DNA of 47,077 bases, from the NCBI GenBank assembly GCA_938083135.1, contig CALLKY010000084.1:1-47077 (forward strand), read 5' to 3'. Within the stretch, counting starts at the first letter, position 1. Every line of letters begins with the position of its first letter. Below the pieces are notes generated by a model. It worked only from the letters and a program-made list of their open reading frames with translations, was not told the DNA's origin and did no database searches. This document shows, piece after piece, positions 15,771 to 40,062 of this stretch. The DNA is from an uncultured Alphaproteobacteria bacterium. Its GTDB lineage: Bacteria; Pseudomonadota; Alphaproteobacteria; Bin95. Made by a program: the position numbers and the translations under genes.

Positions 15771-15788
15771 CTAGGGTCAGGACCCTAG
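15771..15788. terminator. Perfect inverted repeat between convergent genes, possible two-way terminator
   Basis: CTAGGGTC (15771-15778) and GACCCTAG (15781-15788) are separated by two bases; folded, a 7-bp stem with a 4-base loop forms. It sits between the stops of the acyl-CoA dehydrogenase and parB genes and includes the parB stop codon. No T-run follows on either side, so termination is likely but not certain. Confidence 0.4.
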
Positions 15789-16738
15789 GGATCGACCAGG
15801 GCCAGCGGGTCATCCTCGACCCCAGCGCCTGGCCTTTGCGGACGGCCAGTTAAGCGCTGAACTAACAGATCAAGCTGGTCGAGGTCGGTATAGGAAAGGG
15901 TCAGCTTTCCGCCCTTTTTGCCAGTTGCAGCGAGATTAACACTGAGGCCAAGGGCTTCCGTCATCTCCCGCTCCAGCGCCCGGACATTCGGGTCCTTCAG
16001 TGCTGGTGCCGGTTTGGCGGCTGCTGGCATGCCACCCTCTTGCACCAAGCGCTCTGTCTGCCGAACGTTAAGGCCGCGCGCTTTTACGATGTCCGCCAAC
16101 CGCTCCGGATCATTCGCCATCAGCAATGCCCGTGCATGGCCGGCAGATAGCTCGCCAGAGGCCAATCGCGCTTGCGTCTTCTCCGGTAGTTTCAGCAGAC
16201 GCAGCATATTCGCGACATGGGGCCGACTTTTGCCGACTGCTTTCGCCAGATCATCCTGGGTATATTCAAACGTATCGATCAGGTTCTGATACCCGCCCGC
16301 CTCTTCAATCGGGTTCAAGTCTTCACGCTGGACATTCTCTACGAGCGCGATTTCCAACGCATCCCGGTCCGTCATCTCCCGCAGGATGACGGGTGCTTCT
16401 GCCAAACCAGCGCGCTGCGCTGCGCGCCAGCGTCGCTCACCGGCGACAATCTCATACTGGCCCGGCGCGCCATCAACACGGCGCGCAATAATTGGCTGCA
16501 GCATTCCGCGTTCACGGATCGACTGCGCTAGAGAATCAAGCGCATCCTCGTCAAAATGCCGCCTTGGTTGGCCAGCGCCAGGACGCAACGCCGCGATCGG
16601 AATTGCGCGGGCCAGGCGGGCGGATACCTCCTCGCCGCCCGCATCCATCGCGTCGCCATCATCGCCCAACAAGGCCGCAAGCCCACGGCCCAGTTTTGGT
16701 CGTGCGGCTTTACCACCGCTCTTCGCGTCGTCGTTCAC
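15785..16738 (-). CDS. parB: Chromosome partitioning protein ParB
   Basis: 317 aa from a GTG at 16738 that overlaps the parA stop by 4 bp (GTGA). The CTP-binding N-terminal domain has the conserved PGAGQPRRHFDEDAL near residue 55 and AGERRWRAAQRAGL near residue 98; the LVENVQREDLNPIEEA box follows, then the helix-turn-helix (TQDDLAKAVGKSRPHVANMLRLL), and a short C-terminal dimerisation domain. ParB loads onto parS and spreads, and works with ParA to move the origin region. Two perfect parS sites are 2-3.4 kb away in mnmG. The C-terminal linker is rich in Ala and Pro, as usual. Confidence 0.97.
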   Translation of the reverse strand: MNDDAKSGGKAARPKLGRGLAALLGDDGDAMDAGGEEVSARLARAIPIAALRPGAGQPRRHFDEDALDSLAQSIRERGMLQPIIARRVDGAPGQYEIVAGERRWRAAQRAGLAEAPVILREMTDRDALEIALVENVQREDLNPIEEAGGYQNLIDTFEYTQDDLAKAVGKSRPHVANMLRLLKLPEKTQARLASGELSAGHARALLMANDPERLADIVKARGLNVRQTERLVQEGGMPAAAKPAPALKDPNVRALEREMTEALGLSVNLAATGKKGGKLTLSYTDLDQLDLLVQRLTGRPQRPGAGVEDDPLALVDP

Positions 16739-17604
16739 GCTGCCTGCCCCATTCCCGATTGACCTTTTGGCGGCAAGACCTTCTCACGCCGCAGGAATTC
16801 CCGCGCCAGCTTCAAGTATGCCCGGCTGCCAGAGCACTGCAGATCATACAACAGCACTGGTTTTCCATGTGATGGCGCTTCGGAAACCCGTACATTGCGC
16901 GGAATTTCGGCCTTATAAACAATTTCGCCGAAATGCGACCGTACATCCGCAGCCACCGCTTCGGCTAAGCGCATCCGCCGGTCCATCATTGTCAGCACGA
17001 TCCCCTCAAGCGCCAAACGTGGATTGAGCCGTTCTGACACAAGGTCAATCGTGCGCTTCAGGTGGCTTAGCCCTTCAAGCGCCAAGAATTCCGCCTGCAA
17101 TGGTGCCAGCGCCCCGTCAGCCACAGTCAGCGCGTTCAGCGTCAACAAACCAAGCGATGGTGGGCAGTCAATGAGAATGTAGGCATAGTCCAGCGCGCCC
17201 GCACCAATGCTCGCGTCCAAGGCATCCGCAAGCCGACGTTCCCGGCGCGGCATGCTAACCAGTTCAATCTCCGCTCCGGACAGATCCATCGTCGACGGGA
17301 CAATATGAAAGCCAGGTGTTTCGGTTGGCATGGCTGCATCATGGAGTCCGGCCTCGCCAATCAGCACGTCATAAACGCCAATAGCGCGCTTGCTTGCAGG
17401 AATGCCGACCCCTGTGGACGCATTGCCTTGGGGATCCAAATCGATCACCAGCGTCTTCTTACCGCAAGCCGCAAGTGCTGCGGCCAGATTTATGGCCGTG
17501 GTCGTTTTGCCAACCCCGCCCTTCTGGTTGACGACGGCAATGATACGCGGACGCGGCGTGGCCTTTGCAGGCTGCCTCGATGGCGCGTCAAGAACCTCTA
17601 TCAT
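16735..17604 (-). CDS. parA: Chromosome partitioning ATPase ParA
   Basis: 289 aa from ATG at 17604. A GTG at 17643 is in frame but would overlap rsmG by 56 bp; with 17604 the overlap is 17 bp and the protein begins MIEVLDAP just before the conserved domain. The deviant Walker A motif KGGVGKTTTAINLAAAL, DLDPQGNASTG and LIDCPPSLGLLTLNAL identify a Soj/ParA ATPase. It binds DNA without sequence preference in its ATP form and is released by ParB, which drives segregation. It is cotranscribed with rsmG upstream and parB downstream. Confidence 0.97.
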   Translation of the reverse strand: MIEVLDAPSRQPAKATPRPRIIAVVNQKGGVGKTTTAINLAAALAACGKKTLVIDLDPQGNASTGVGIPASKRAIGVYDVLIGEAGLHDAAMPTETPGFHIVPSTMDLSGAEIELVSMPRRERRLADALDASIGAGALDYAYILIDCPPSLGLLTLNALTVADGALAPLQAEFLALEGLSHLKRTIDLVSERLNPRLALEGIVLTMMDRRMRLAEAVAADVRSHFGEIVYKAEIPRNVRVSEAPSHGKPVLLYDLQCSGSRAYLKLAREFLRREKVLPPKGQSGMGQAA

Positions 17605-18226
17605 GCTGCGCGATGCCCCATATTTTGACAATTTGACCGCCACCCCCAGTAATACTAGGCGTTAGAGCGTATTGCAGTGTCCAGGATTTCTGCGCCTCGG
17701 TCAATTCTTTTTCGGCCTGCGCCCCTTTCAGTAGCAGTGCATAACCCTGAGGTTTCAGCGCTTTAGTCAGGATCGGCATTAATTTCGTAATGCTGGCGAC
17801 AGCCCGGGCCGTCACGACATCGTAGGCGCCAGCTTCATTCGACAATGCTACATCAAACCGCTTTGCAACAATGCACGGTTTTACACCTGCGGCCCGTGCC
17901 GCTTCCCGCAAAAACACGGCTTTCCGCTGATCGCTATCAACGAGCGTGACATTGCGCGCGCCCAGGATGGAGAAGATCAGCCCAGGTAATCCTGCGCCGG
18001 AGCCAAGGTCCAATAATGGCCCATCCTTCGCTGATATATGTGGCCAGGCCTGCGCTGAATCCAAGACATGCCGCCGCCAAATGTCATCTATGGACCCTGG
18101 GCCAATGAGATTGATCCGCTGCCGCCACTTATCCAGCACTGCGACATAGGTCGTCAGCCCTTCAAAAGCGCTATCAGAAACACCCAGCTTGGTGAGGGCA
18201 TTTAAGACGTCCTTCGGTGGGCTCAT
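17588..18226 (-). CDS. rsmG: 16S rRNA m7G527 methyltransferase RsmG (GidB)
   Basis: 212 aa. The SAM-binding motif [17 protein letters not shown] near residue 70 and the C-terminal [11 protein letters not shown] are typical of RsmG, which methylates N7 of G527 in 16S rRNA. The N-terminal segment [25 protein letters not shown] is also conserved. The start overlaps the mnmG stop by 4 bp and the end overlaps parA, so the gene is inside one tightly packed operon with mnmE, mnmG, parA and parB. Confidence 0.96.
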
Positions 18227-20112
18227 CGCGCCGCTGCACGGCGTTTCGGGCCGTTCTGCATATAGCGCAATAGGGCGCTTATAGCGGCTGGTGTGATCCC
18301 TGGCATCCTTGCTGCAGCGCCAAGCGTATCTGGGCGCACACGCTCCAACCGTTGGCGGGCCTCGTTTGAAAGACTGCCAATGTCTGCATAATCAAGGTCC
18401 TTCGGCAGCTTTAGAGCTTCGTCACGCTTGAAGGCCTCAACGTCGGCGCGCTGGCGATCTAAGTAAGAGGCATATTGCGCATCCACTGTCAGGCTCTCAC
18501 GGGCCCAAAGCGGGATTTCCGCCAGCTCGGGCCAAAGCATACAGAGATGCCGGTCTTTAGCCCCAAAGCGCCCCATAAGCTCCAGGGCAGATCGACGACG
18601 CCCATCATCATTAGCGGGCGCTCCTATCCGGCTGAGTTCCCCAGGCGTGGCCGTCCATGCTTCAAGGGTCGTCCGTGCGCTCTGGAGTGCCGCATGTTTC
18701 ACGTGAAACAAATCAGTCCGGGCGGCACCGACACACCCAATCTCAATGCCACGCGCCGTTAGTCGGCTATCAGCATTGTCGGCGCGCAAGTGCAATCGAA
18801 ATTCAGCTCGGGATGTGAACATTCTGTAGGGTTCATCCACACCCCGTACAACGAGATCATCGATCAGAACACCCATATAGGCCTCCGAGCGATCAAATGT
18901 GACCTGTGCTTGCCCAGAAACCGCACAGGCCGCATTTAGACCAGCGATCAAGCCCTGCGCGCCCGCTTCCTCATAGCCTGTCGTGCCGTTGATCTGCCCC
19001 GCAAGGTATAAGCCGGGTATGCGCTTGGTTTGCAGGCTGTGATCAAGCTCACGAGGGTCAACGAAATCATACTCCACGGCATAGCCTGGTTTGGCGATTT
19101 CAACCTTCTCAAGACCCTCGATTGTTCGAAGGAATTCTATCTGGACGGCCTCAGGCAAACTGGTCGATATTCCGTTTGGATAGACCAAAGGACTATCTAA
19201 GCCTTCCGGTTCCAGGAAGATTTGATGCGCGTTCTTCTCCTGAAACCGAACCACCTTATCTTCGATAGAGGGGCAATAGCGCGGGCCTGGACCAGTAATT
19301 CCGCCACCATAAATCGCCGACTCATGCAGATGATCATAGATTATCTTGTGTGTCTGATCATTCGTGAAGGTTATATGGCAATCCAATTGTGGTGTTGTAA
19401 TTGCTTCTGTCATCGCAGAGAACGGTTCTGGTGGATCGTCCCCTGGCTGCGGCGTCAATGTTGAATAGTTGATGGACTCCCGCAGAAGCCGGGCAGGCGT
19501 ACCAGTCTTTAGGCGTCCCATTGCGAAGCCATGGGATTCAAGGCGCTGGCCGAAGGTGGTTGCGGCGTCCTCACCAATCCGTCCGGACGCGATCTGCGTG
19601 TGGCCTATATGAATGATACCTCGCAAGAATGTTCCAGTGGTCACCACGACGGCGCCAGCCCGAATCTCCTTACCATCCGCAATAAGCACCCCGCATGCTT
19701 GAGGCCCATCCATTAGGATGTCATCAACGGCACCAGCAACAAGCGACAAACCATCTTGTTCTTTAAGAGCTGCCTGCATTGCCGCCTTATATAGTTTCCT
19801 GTCAGCTTGCGCTCTTGGGCCGCGGACTGCTGGTCCTTTGCTCCGGTTGAGCAGCCTAAATTGGATTCCGGCTGCATCCGCAACACGCCCCATCAATCCA
19901 TCGAGCGCATCGATTTCCCGGACCAGGTGGCCTTTGCCAAGGCCGCCGATTGCGGGATTGCAGGACATCTCACCAATTGTGTCGAGCTTGTGCGTCACAA
20001 GCGCTGTGCGCGCGCCCATACGTGCAGCGGCAGCGGCAGCTTCGCAGCCAGCATGGCCGCCACCGACGACGATGACATCGTATTGATCATCATGATGTTT
20101 CACGTGAAACAT
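18223..20112 (-). CDS. mnmG: tRNA uridine-5-carboxymethylaminomethyl modification enzyme MnmG (GidA)
   Basis: 629 aa from ATG at 20112. FAD-binding [21 protein letters not shown], then [33 protein letters not shown], and the C-terminal ALLRYMQNG-type end are all family hallmarks. With MnmE it modifies U34 of several tRNAs. Two parS sites are built into the gene: one covers codons 2-6 (FHVKH) directly after the start codon, the other encodes the same peptide at residues 469-473 in a variable region. The N-terminal extension before VIVVGGG is therefore dictated by a DNA site. The gene starts 14 bp after mnmE. Confidence 0.97.
18695..18710. promoter_or_regulatory. parS: parS centromere site (internal, in mnmG)
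   Basis: TGTTTCACGTGAAACA, a perfect 16-bp palindrome identical to the general bacterial parS consensus. It lies within mnmG at codons 469-473 and is read there as FHVKH. It is about 2 kb from parB and 9.4 kb from the putative origin. Confidence 0.95.
20096..20111. promoter_or_regulatory. parS: parS centromere site (at the mnmG start)
   Basis: A second identical TGTTTCACGTGAAACA. It begins at the second base of the mnmG start codon and covers the first codons, which read FHVKH. ParB bound here would sit on the translation start region of mnmG as DNA, about 8 kb from the putative origin. Confidence 0.95.
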
Positions 20113-21776: not shown

Positions 21777-21868
21777 CCCAGACCCATTCCTTGCTTGTGG
21801 CGCAGGTACTATATAGCCATTGAGGCATGCCGTGCCTACGGCTCATCAAAGGGCGCACAGGAGCGACA

Positions 21869-26851: not shown

Positions 26852-27868
26852 TCAGCCTCGTACTGTCTCAATCAGGCGTTCAACATGGGCAATCGGTGTG
26901 TCTGGTGTAATGCCATGGCCCAGATTGAAGATATGGCGATGGCCTTCCGTTGCAGCCAAAATGCGACGAAGTTCACGGTCCAAAATATCGCCACCTTTAA
27001 CGAGCGCCGTCGGATCCAGATTGCCTTGCGGAACAGCCCCAGCATTGGCAACACGGGCCATCTGTTCAGCGGGTAGGCTTTGGCCGCAGGATACCGCATC
27101 GATCGATTTGGTCGCCGCATAGGCCTCCAGATAGGAATCTGCCCCCCGTGGGAATGCAATCACATAGGCATGGGGACGGGCCGCCTTAACCGCACCCGCA
27201 ATCCGTTGAATTGGTGCCAGACTCCACTGCTCAATCCCATAGGCTGGAAGTGCGCCGGCCCAGCTATCGAAAATCTGGACAATTTGGGCACCGGCATCGA
27301 TCTGGCGGATCAAATGATCGGCAATCACGGTTTCAAGCATGCTGATCAGGGCCATGAACGCATCCGGTTCATTGACAGCGAATTTCCGGGCAGTTGCATA
27401 ATCCCGGCTTCCAGAGCCTTCGACCATGTATGCGGCTAATGTCCATGGGGCACCAGCAAACCCGATCAGCGCCGTTTCATTTGGCAAAGCTGCGCGAGTT
27501 TGGCGAAGGGCTGTGTAGACGGGCTGCAAATGGTCTTCGACAGCACTTGGTGTGAGCGCCTGAATATCCGCCGGGGATTTGATGGTTTCCAATACAGGAC
27601 CCGTGCCTGGAATGAATTTGACATCCACGCCAAGCGCATCTGGAATGACCAGGATGTCGGAAAAAATAATCGCGGCGTCAAACCCAAAGCGCCGAATTGG
27701 CTGCAATGTTGCTTCCGTTGCCATATCAGGCGTGTAGCAGAAATTCAAAAAGTCACGGGCGGCTTTCCGTAATTCCAGATATTCAGGCAAGTACCGGCCA
27801 GCCTGGCGCATCAGCCAGATTGGTCGGCGTTGGGTGGGTTGGCCAGCCAGGACATCGCAAATCAGCAT
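26852..27868 (-). CDS. hemE: Uroporphyrinogen decarboxylase HemE
   Basis: 338 aa from ATG at 27868; a TTG at 27889 would add seven residues and cannot be ruled out. The N-terminal RRPIWLMRQAGRYLPEYLELR carries the substrate-binding Arg residues, GFAGAPWTLAAYMVEG is in the middle and FNLGHGITPDTPIAHVERLIE at the end. The enzyme removes four carboxyl groups from uroporphyrinogen III to give coproporphyrinogen III. It is the first gene leftward of the origin region and is cotranscribed with hemJ. In Caulobacter the same gene borders the origin, with one of its promoters lying inside it. Confidence 0.97.
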   Translation of the reverse strand: MLICDVLAGQPTQRRPIWLMRQAGRYLPEYLELRKAARDFLNFCYTPDMATEATLQPIRRFGFDAAIIFSDILVIPDALGVDVKFIPGTGPVLETIKSPADIQALTPSAVEDHLQPVYTALRQTRAALPNETALIGFAGAPWTLAAYMVEGSGSRDYATARKFAVNEPDAFMALISMLETVIADHLIRQIDAGAQIVQIFDSWAGALPAYGIEQWSLAPIQRIAGAVKAARPHAYVIAFPRGADSYLEAYAATKSIDAVSCGQSLPAEQMARVANAGAVPQGNLDPTALVKGGDILDRELRRILAATEGHRHIFNLGHGITPDTPIAHVERLIETVRG

Positions 27869-27955
27869 GGTGAAACTATCTGCCTTCAAACCAGGATCGG
27901 AGGAACGGAGAGAATGATACCTTTTCCACCGAACCCATAAACCCTTCCTTAACTA

Positions 27956-27975
27956 AAGATTCTAATTTGAATCTT
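27956..27975. repeat. AT-rich inverted repeat in the origin region
   Basis: AAGATTC (27956-27962) and GAATCTT (27969-27975) are complementary around a TAATTT loop. Each arm holds one GANTC site, so both possible methylation sites lie in one small palindrome. It is in the most AT-rich part of the region near hemE. Confidence 0.6.
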
Positions 27976-28128
27976 GATAGTGAAGGTAGTTGGGGGGTCG
28001 AGTCCCGTGGAAAACCCTGTCCAGCATTGAACTGGGGCTGGATATGCACAGCTTCAATTGATGAGCTTATATTGCGCATTTTGTGTGGATTTTCCAACTT
28101 TAGGCGGGGCTGTCCTACATTGATGGTA

Positions 28129-28141
28129 CCGTGAATCACGG
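28129..28141. repeat. Short palindrome centred on a GANTC site in the origin region
   Basis: CCGTG (28129-28133) and CACGG (28137-28141) pair around AAT; the middle reads GAATC (28133-28137). The right arm runs into the weak DnaA-type sequence CGGGGATAA (28139-28147), so a methylation site and a DnaA-type box touch here. Confidence 0.45.
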
Positions 28142-28236
28142 GGATAAAGATTAAATGGGGCTGGTCATCCCCAGCCTCTTAAACCCACCGTCAACATGTG
28201 AGAAACTCCATTGCTGAATCTGTCTGTTTTGGGTCC

Positions 28237-28245
28237 TTATCCCCA
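28237..28245 (+). promoter_or_regulatory. DnaA-box-like site
   Basis: TTATCCCCA differs from the consensus TTATCCACA at one position. It is the best of several DnaA-type sites in the origin region and lies about 90 bp before the PPSR start codon. Confidence 0.5.
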
Positions 28246-28337
28246 TGCATCTGCCAAGATGAAAGTTATGATCATTCCATGCCCGGGGTTTTCCTACTGT
28301 TATACAAGCTATCCACGCCGAATTTTGGACCTGATTG

Positions 28338-29174
28338 ATGCCCAATAAGCAAGTTCACCTCCATTTGGTCTCCGATTCGACGGGCGATACGGTGCGCAGC
28401 GTCGCCCGTGCATCCCTTGCGCAATTCCATCAGGCTGAAGTGACGGAGCACTTCTGGACCCTGGTGCGCAGCCCGGCTCAGATCGACCGGGTTATTGAAG
28501 GCATTGCAGACAAACCAGGCGTCGTATTCCTGACGATGCTGGATGATAACATGCGCAGCCAATTGCTGAGCGCTTGCCGGTCCATGAGCATGCCAGCCGT
28601 GTCCCTGTTGGATGGTGCTATTTCGGCGCTGGGATCTGTGTTGGGTGAGCAATCCAAAAATCAGCCTGGCCTGCAACATGCAATGGATGAGGCCTATTTC
28701 GACCGAATTTCAGCAATGAACTACGCCATGGCCCATGATGATGGTCAGTCACTTTGGTCACTGAATGAAGCGGATGTAATTTTGTGCGGTGTGTCGCGTA
28801 CATCAAAAACGCCGACATGCGTGTATCTGGCGAACCGTGGCCTCAAGGCTGCGAATGTGCCGTTTGTACCAACGTCACCACCGCCGCAAGAACTATTAGA
28901 CGCTAAGGATACGTTCGTTGTCGGGCTGACGGCAGATCCTGGCCGCCTCATCCAAGTGCGCCGACACCGCCTTGTGCATCTGCATGGGGAAGATACGGAA
29001 ACGGATTATGTGGATACAGACCAAGTGCGCCAGGAAGTGATTGAAGCAAGACGCTATTTTCTGGCGCGGAACTGGCCTGTGATTGACGTATCCCGACGGT
29101 CAATTGAGGAAACGGCAGCGTCAATCATCCAGCTATATGAACGGCACCAGGAGGCGCTGAATGCGAACGCATAA
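28338..29174 (+). CDS. Pyruvate, phosphate dikinase/PEP synthase regulatory protein (PPSR family, DUF299)
   Basis: 278 aa from ATG at 28338; the preceding in-frame TTG at 28335 is unlikely. The family signature starts right away (VHLHLVSDSTGDTVRSVARA), and the P-loop-like CGVSRTSKTPTCVYLANRG near residue 155 is the nucleotide-binding site. Members both phosphorylate (from ADP) and dephosphorylate pyruvate phosphate dikinase or PEP synthase. Which target is used is not clear because neither enzyme is in the window. It is the first gene rightward of the origin, as in Caulobacter, and overlaps maf by 14 bp. Confidence 0.93.
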   Translation: MPNKQVHLHLVSDSTGDTVRSVARASLAQFHQAEVTEHFWTLVRSPAQIDRVIEGIADKPGVVFLTMLDDNMRSQLLSACRSMSMPAVSLLDGAISALGSVLGEQSKNQPGLQHAMDEAYFDRISAMNYAMAHDDGQSLWSLNEADVILCGVSRTSKTPTCVYLANRGLKAANVPFVPTSPPPQELLDAKDTFVVGLTADPGRLIQVRRHRLVHLHGEDTETDYVDTDQVRQEVIEARRYFLARNWPVIDVSRRSIEETAASIIQLYERHQEALNANA

Positions 29175-39505: not shown

Positions 39506-39509
39506 GCGA

Positions 39510-39794
39510 TTACCGTCTGCGGCGGCCTGGCAGCATCAACAGCAAGCCAAGGCCGCTGAGGATGGGCCATGCCGGCCACAACAGGAATGTCTGAATCGCA
39601 GGGTCCCAAAGCCAGGCGGAAACATAACGCTGGATAACCGCCTGGGCTGTATTCAGCCATTCTGGGAACAGCCGGAAAGCGATTTCGCCGAAGACGATCA
39701 AGCTCCAGTCGCCATATTCAAAATAGCCAAGCGCCTCCCAAACGATCACCGCCAAGGCTAGGGCTAGAAAAAAGAGAGCGATAAAGCGGCGCAT
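39510..39794 (-). CDS. Small membrane protein, unknown
   Basis: 94 aa from ATG at 39794 with GGAAG about 9 bp upstream; a TTG at 39800 is in frame. One membrane segment is at residues 4-22 (FIALFFLALALAVIVWEAL) and another near the C-terminus (FLLWPAWPILSGLGLLLML), with an aromatic-rich loop between. It ends in RRRR. The layout suggests a periplasmic loop with both ends inside. I do not recognise a named family. It converges on secB with 4 bp between stops and lies 44 bp after fdsD on the same strand, so it may be read from the fds transcript. Confidence 0.65.
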   Translation of the reverse strand: MRRFIALFFLALALAVIVWEALGYFEYGDWSLIVFGEIAFRLFPEWLNTAQAVIQRYVSAWLWDPAIQTFLLWPAWPILSGLGLLLMLPGRRRR

Positions 39795-39838
39795 CGGCAA
39801 AGCTTCCCATAAACGCGTGTTGCCGGACTATACCACAG

Positions 39839-40051
39839 CTATTCTTGCAGTGCCTTCGCGATGGCGTGAAGCGGCGCACTCGCCTGATCGCCCTTAGCCG
39901 CAATCACCGCCAGAAAATCCGCGCGCATGCTCGGTGCCCAGAACTGCTTCAGGTGCGATGCCGCGGCTGCAGGGGCGGCGTCCCCTTGATGGCGGAAAAA
40001 CTGATAAATCTCCCCCGCCATCCGCAATAGCTTCTCGTCTTGCTCAGTCAT
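39839..40051 (-). CDS. fdsD: Formate dehydrogenase delta subunit FdsD
   Basis: 70 aa from ATG at 40051; a TTG at 40066 would overlap the fdhD stop. The short protein has the family pattern LLRMAGEIYQFFRHQ, then HLKQFWAPSMRADFLAV and a C-terminal ALHAIAKALQE-like helix. FdsD is a small component of soluble NAD-dependent formate dehydrogenases and is needed for activity in Cupriavidus necator, though its exact role is unclear. It closes the fds operon. Confidence 0.87.
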   Translation of the reverse strand: MTEQDEKLLRMAGEIYQFFRHQGDAAPAAAASHLKQFWAPSMRADFLAVIAAKGDQASAPLHAIAKALQE

Positions 40052-40062
40052 TGTATGCGCGC

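Follow-up and report, generated by a model that had tools for sequence, protein, structure and literature searches.

Gene content and composition of the hemE/PPSR interval

The stretch of DNA analyzed here (the window, 47,077 nucleotides) is contig C84 of a 4.15 Mb draft genome in 163 contigs from an uncultured alphaproteobacterium. In this window hemE (NCBIfam model TIGR01464) and the PPSR gene (NF003742; COG1806/DUF299) are divergently transcribed from either side of a 445-bp noncoding gap. The gene order assigned with NCBIfam models was parB-parA-rsmG-mnmG-mnmE and rho-hemJ-hemE on the left of the gap, with an insert of four genes between mnmE and rho (ogt, an ORF without a family match, a hydrolase-like ORF and a dioxygenase-like ORF), and PPSR-maf-aroE-coaE-dnaQ on the right. 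A preliminary description had proposed this divergent pair and its flanking genes on both sides, and the family models bore it out. The features of the region are as follows.

15785-17643, minus strand: parB (15785-16738) and parA (16735-17643), from gene calls
18695-18710, no strand assigned: perfect parS, TGTTTCACGTGAAACA, inside mnmG, from the parS search
20096-20111, no strand assigned: perfect parS at the start of mnmG, encoding MFHVKH, from the parS search
26852-27889, minus strand: hemE, left boundary of the gap, with its start at 27889
27890-28334 (445 bp), no strand assigned: putative oriC, the noncoding hemE/PPSR gap, from gene calls, composition and relatives
27922-27930, plus strand: DnaA-box-like TTTTCCACC, from the box scan
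27937-28004, no strand assigned: 68-bp block identical to that of the sister species G003 (permutation p = 0.0018)
27938-27977, no strand assigned: AT-rich block, probably the unwound DNA, with the inverted repeat AAGATTCTAA/TTTGAATCTT at 27956-27975, from the sequence
27978-27992, plus strand: degenerate DnaA-trio array TAG TGA AGG TAG TTG, 8 of 10 on the T-x-G measure
27993-28005, plus strand: G-rich spacer of 13 nt between the trio array and a DnaA box, from the sequence
28006-28014, minus strand: DnaA-box-like TTTTCCACG, 2 mismatches, adjoining the trio array, from the box scan
28042-28050, plus strand: DnaA-box-like ATATGCACA, from the box scan
28084-28092, minus strand: DnaA-box-like AAATCCACA, from the box scan
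28130-28147, minus strand: tandem box-like pair, TTATCCCCG (28139-28147) then TGATTCACG (28130-28138), from the box scan and relatives
28165-28173, plus strand: DnaA-box-like TCATCCCCA, from the box scan
28237-28245, plus strand: best DnaA box, TTATCCCCA, 1 mismatch, from the box scan
28309-28317, plus strand: DnaA-box-like CTATCCACG, from the box scan
28335-29174, plus strand: PPSR gene, right boundary of the gap

The gap was AT-rich as had been described, with a GC content of 0.463 compared to 0.584 for the window. The earlier statement that the window has no other long stretch free of genes did not hold: judged by the gaps between ORFs, positions 1-1290 and 39506-40062 are at least as long, and the latter, 557 bp without a long non-overlapping ORF, exceeds the hemE/PPSR gap in length. 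Two small inverted repeats were found by program rather than the three reported earlier, one at 27956-27975 and a palindrome at 28119-28136. No match to an Rfam structured RNA was found in the gap.

DnaA boxes, strand asymmetry and partition sites

Sites resembling the DnaA box were identified with the pattern TTATCCACA, allowing up to two mismatches, and dinucleotide shuffles (n = 1000) served as the control. There were eight such sites in the 445-bp gap, compared to 1.66 expected; none of the 1000 shuffles reached eight, nor did any other stretch of that length in the window. None of the eight sites was perfect. One, at 28237 (TTATCCCCA), had a single mismatch, in agreement with the preliminary description, and seven rather than the five weaker boxes given there had two. 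The single-mismatch box taken by itself was not significant (p = 0.16); in other words, the significance sits in the cluster. A strict pattern, TTATCCMCR, had 60 matches in the whole genome compared to 57 in the control, which is close to chance, so this pattern by itself does not distinguish the gap. Two further pairs, on contigs C96 and C120, were considered and are not box clusters.

The tandem motif CGTGRATCAYGGGGAT, common to G000, G003 and G002, consists of two weak DnaA boxes in a head-to-tail arrangement, and one of them overlaps a GANTC site. Sequences resembling CGTGRATCAYGGGGAT were also found after the trio array in many origins of the class.

Analysis of GC skew in this 163-contig draft covered the window, where the cumulative skew was lowest at 27473, less than 420 bp from the gap. 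The step from negative to positive skew in the window was significant in block shuffles (p = 0.002). In the closed genome of a class relative (G022), sampled skew was negative over one half-circle and positive over the other. Within 240 kb around its hemE/PPSR locus, the cumulative skew was lowest at 3,616,825, which is 11 kb from PPSR at 3,605,831, in a flat trough extending from about 3.6055 to 3.6455 Mb. The skew of another closed relative, G286, was unusable. Also near the gap were two perfect 16-bp parS sites, both within the coding sequence of mnmG and 8-9 kb to the left. One of these encodes the N-terminus MFHVKH, so the first residues of MnmG are set by a ParB site.

An origin that is nearby but outside the gap, for instance beside parAB or between other genes of the window, would fit the strongest single skew step of the window, which was at 21789, away from the gap. 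It would also fit the closed relative G025, in which the skew switched between samples at 2.10 and 2.15 Mb while PPSR is at 2.209 Mb, some 40-110 kb off. However, the density of boxes in the gap is unequaled elsewhere in the window, and the layout of the hemE/PPSR stretch is conserved across the class, which makes an origin outside the gap extremely unlikely. A location beside dnaA, which is encoded on a different contig, was also rejected: the 20 kb around dnaA contained at most four boxes per 445 bp and no switch from negative to positive skew.

Conservation and control of the interval

The divergent hemE/PPSR gap was present in every compared locus that held both genes, and in relatives across the class. 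Class relatives, the closed genomes G022 and G286 among them, also share the gene order of the hemE side and of the dnaQ side. In the sister species G003 the gap was 87% identical, and differences between the two species were nearly absent from the DnaA boxes: only 1 of 72 box positions differed, compared to 57 of 373 other positions (Fisher p = 0.0002).

Two genus-mates with genomes of 2.6-2.8 Mb, G001 and G004, have lost PPSR, and in these hemE faces maf. (The corresponding loci, L035 and L036, were assigned to these genomes by hemE identities of 65 and 63%.) In both, hemE and maf are still separated by noncoding DNA of about 590 bp that is rich in AT and in boxes, and its hemE end keeps a trio-like array followed by TTATCCCCG. 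The same TTATCCCCG replaces TTTTCCACG as the array-side box in all three genus-mates G001, G002 and G004. This natural deletion of PPSR is an argument for a chromosomal function of the stretch rather than one for PPSR, and because the noncoding DNA persists where the gene is gone, the gap is not merely the PPSR promoter. As a separate observation, G004, though 96% complete, yielded no match to the DnaA domain at E ≤ 1e-40, and two were found in G001 (L360 and L363); the absence from G004 may be a gap in the draft or a real oddity of the lineage.

Divergent genes do require promoters, and DnaA also acts as a regulator of transcription (PMC3193534). The gap could therefore be simply a double promoter of hemE and PPSR, kept for regulation by DnaA or another regulator, with the origin elsewhere. 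One sigma-70-like site was found in it, but this is what chance predicts (1 compared to 1.0 expected). A double promoter would also have to coincide with the skew minimum, the parS sites and the box cluster, and would have to survive the loss of PPSR. We consider this explanation highly improbable.

Taken together, the synteny, the box cluster, the local skew minimum, the parS sites, the conservation that extends to loci without PPSR, and the skew of a closed relative support the origin proposed in the preliminary description. Judged from sequence, positions 27890-28334 are very probably the origin from which the main chromosome of this uncultured alphaproteobacterium is replicated in a DnaA-dependent manner. 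The locus can be assigned with high confidence to the hemE/COG1806 origins already known from alphaproteobacteria, and is ordinary for the class.

The preliminary description called this origin Caulobacter-type, which holds for the location and the flanking genes and fails for control by CtrA. No exact TTAA-N7-TTAA site was found in the gap. An origin with CtrA control as in Caulobacter could draw on a site with one mismatch at 27938, but sites with up to two mismatches were at chance (4 compared to 2.5 expected, p = 0.25), and only 12 of 165 class origins contained an exact site. CtrA control is thus unsupported by the sites in the gap, and we regard it as unlikely. Origins of the hemE/COG1806 kind without CtrA sites are on record (PMC1914354), so their absence bears on control and not on whether the gap is an origin.

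GANTC occurred five times in the gap, compared to 1.9 expected (p = 0.04). CcrM sites were rejected as a conserved part of these origins: enrichment was 1.45 in 111 CcrM-positive and 1.36 in 19 CcrM-negative class origins (density p = 0.98), with CcrM presence scored by the RAMA domain. Enrichment of GANTC in intergenic DNA is already known (PMC3973325).

Trio arrays, DnaA residue 187 and comparison with known systems

The best array candidate in the whole gap was TAGTGAAGGTAGTTG at 27978-27992, which scored 8 of 10, a score reached by 14% of shuffles. Arrays of this type were surveyed in 165 non-redundant origins of the class by scoring runs of five T-x-G triplets with the middle base ignored. 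A score of at least 9 of 10 was found in 40% of the 165 gaps, compared to 0.7% of shuffles and 0.6% on the opposite strand. T-x-G arrays across these 165 origins are real. They sit 0.18 of the way into the gap from hemE (10-90% range, 0.13-0.24), and the DNA on their hemE side is 72% AT compared to 49%. Beyond the array, a box-like sequence in the TGTGGATAA orientation with up to two mismatches was found in 29 of 66 origins but in only 5 of 66 shuffled stretches. Spacings between array and box cluster at 4-5 and 12-14 nt; the published spacer between trios and box peaks at 10-13 bp (PMC8287927).

The array in the window is at relative position 0.198, compared to a class median of 0.182. Since this is where arrays are expected, and since the array lies within the 68-bp invariant block with 13 nt between it and the box at 28006, the unwinding end of the origin likely adjoins hemE. 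We propose that DnaA would assemble on the weak boxes clustered throughout the gap, and that a filament of DnaA starting at the 28006-28014 box would cross the G-rich spacer and capture one strand of the array at 27978-27992. The duplex would then open into the AT-rich block at 27938-27977 beside hemE, where replicative helicases would load for bidirectional replication, and ParB bound to the two parS sites in mnmG would segregate the new origin. For an uncultured alphaproteobacterium represented by a draft assembly, this assigns the origin to a contig and gives a map of the unwinding end that can be tested.

The middle base of the trios is not restricted to A. In 66 class arrays it was A in 181 triplets, T in 94, G in 53, and C in 2; outside a Reyranella-like group the counts were A 93, T 90, G 51, and C 1, with three consecutive middle A in only 5 of 47 arrays. 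The Reyranella contrast (Fisher p about 1e-20) represents essentially one lineage and is uncorrected for ancestry. In B. subtilis, Asn187 of DnaA holds the middle base through its amino group, which is why C replaces A better than G or T does (PMC10721633). The tolerance in alphaproteobacterial arrays is the reverse, with T and G accepted and C nearly absent.

Alignment of the organism's own DnaA to chain 8btg_A placed Tyr at the position of Asn187. Among 48 alphaproteobacterial DnaA proteins, including this one, residue 187 was Tyr in 40, Phe in three, Asn in three and His in two, while Glu183 and Glu228 were invariant and Arg202 was always Lys. In the Reyranella-like family f63, Asn187 goes together with arrays whose middles are nearly all A, and one of the three Asn187 genomes, G233 of this family, had an all-A array resembling those of the Reyranella loci, whose DnaA residue was itself assigned from f63 genomes with like-looking origin sequence. 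The other two, G252 and G280, have Asn187 yet mixed middle bases, so co-variation between the residue and the middle base, and with it a residue-to-base code, is suggested and no more.

It is possible, and we put this forward tentatively, that alphaproteobacterial DnaA reads another trio code, 5'-T(A/T/G)G-3' with C excluded, whose arrays, the one in this gap among them, are missed by a search that requires a middle A. A pocket with Asn187 replaced by Tyr or Phe would not require an amino group on the middle base, and a T(A/T/G)G trio would result. Because the published survey of origins required 3'-NAN-5' (PMC8287927), it could not have seen arrays with a middle T or G, and no paper on this pattern was found among the open-access papers searched. 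The class-wide pattern together with Tyr187 outweighs the single locus in importance, since the arrays with T or G middles and the Tyr at the Asn187 site make single-strand recognition by DnaA across bacteria directly testable with an existing assay.

In Caulobacter crescentus, the origin Cori lies between hemE and COG1806/CC0001 (PMC1914354). The gap described here resembles Cori and the origin of Rickettsia prowazekii in its flanking genes, its length of more than 400 bp, its cluster of DnaA boxes, its AT-rich block and the par locus nearby. It differs from both in that its boxes are weak, several being TTATCCCC-like, and from Cori in having no exact CtrA site where Cori has five. The basal unwinding system (BUS) of B. 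subtilis and other bacteria consists of a DnaA box, a GC-rich spacer, DnaA-trios and AT-rich DNA (PMC8287927, PMC10721633, PMC8235120). The window has these parts in the same order and orientation, with AT-rich DNA past the array and a 13-nt spacer in the published range; the box, TTTTCCACG with two mismatches, is thus inside the 16-bp limit of the BUS definition. Unlike the BUS, however, the array is degenerate: its middle bases are A, G, G, A and T, and on direct reading neither this frame nor the other two contains three or more consecutive 3'-NAN-5' triplets, and the DnaA that would read it has Tyr where that of B. subtilis has Asn187. The arrays of the class as a whole share both order and polarity with the basal unwinding system of B. 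subtilis (PMC8287927, PMC8235120).
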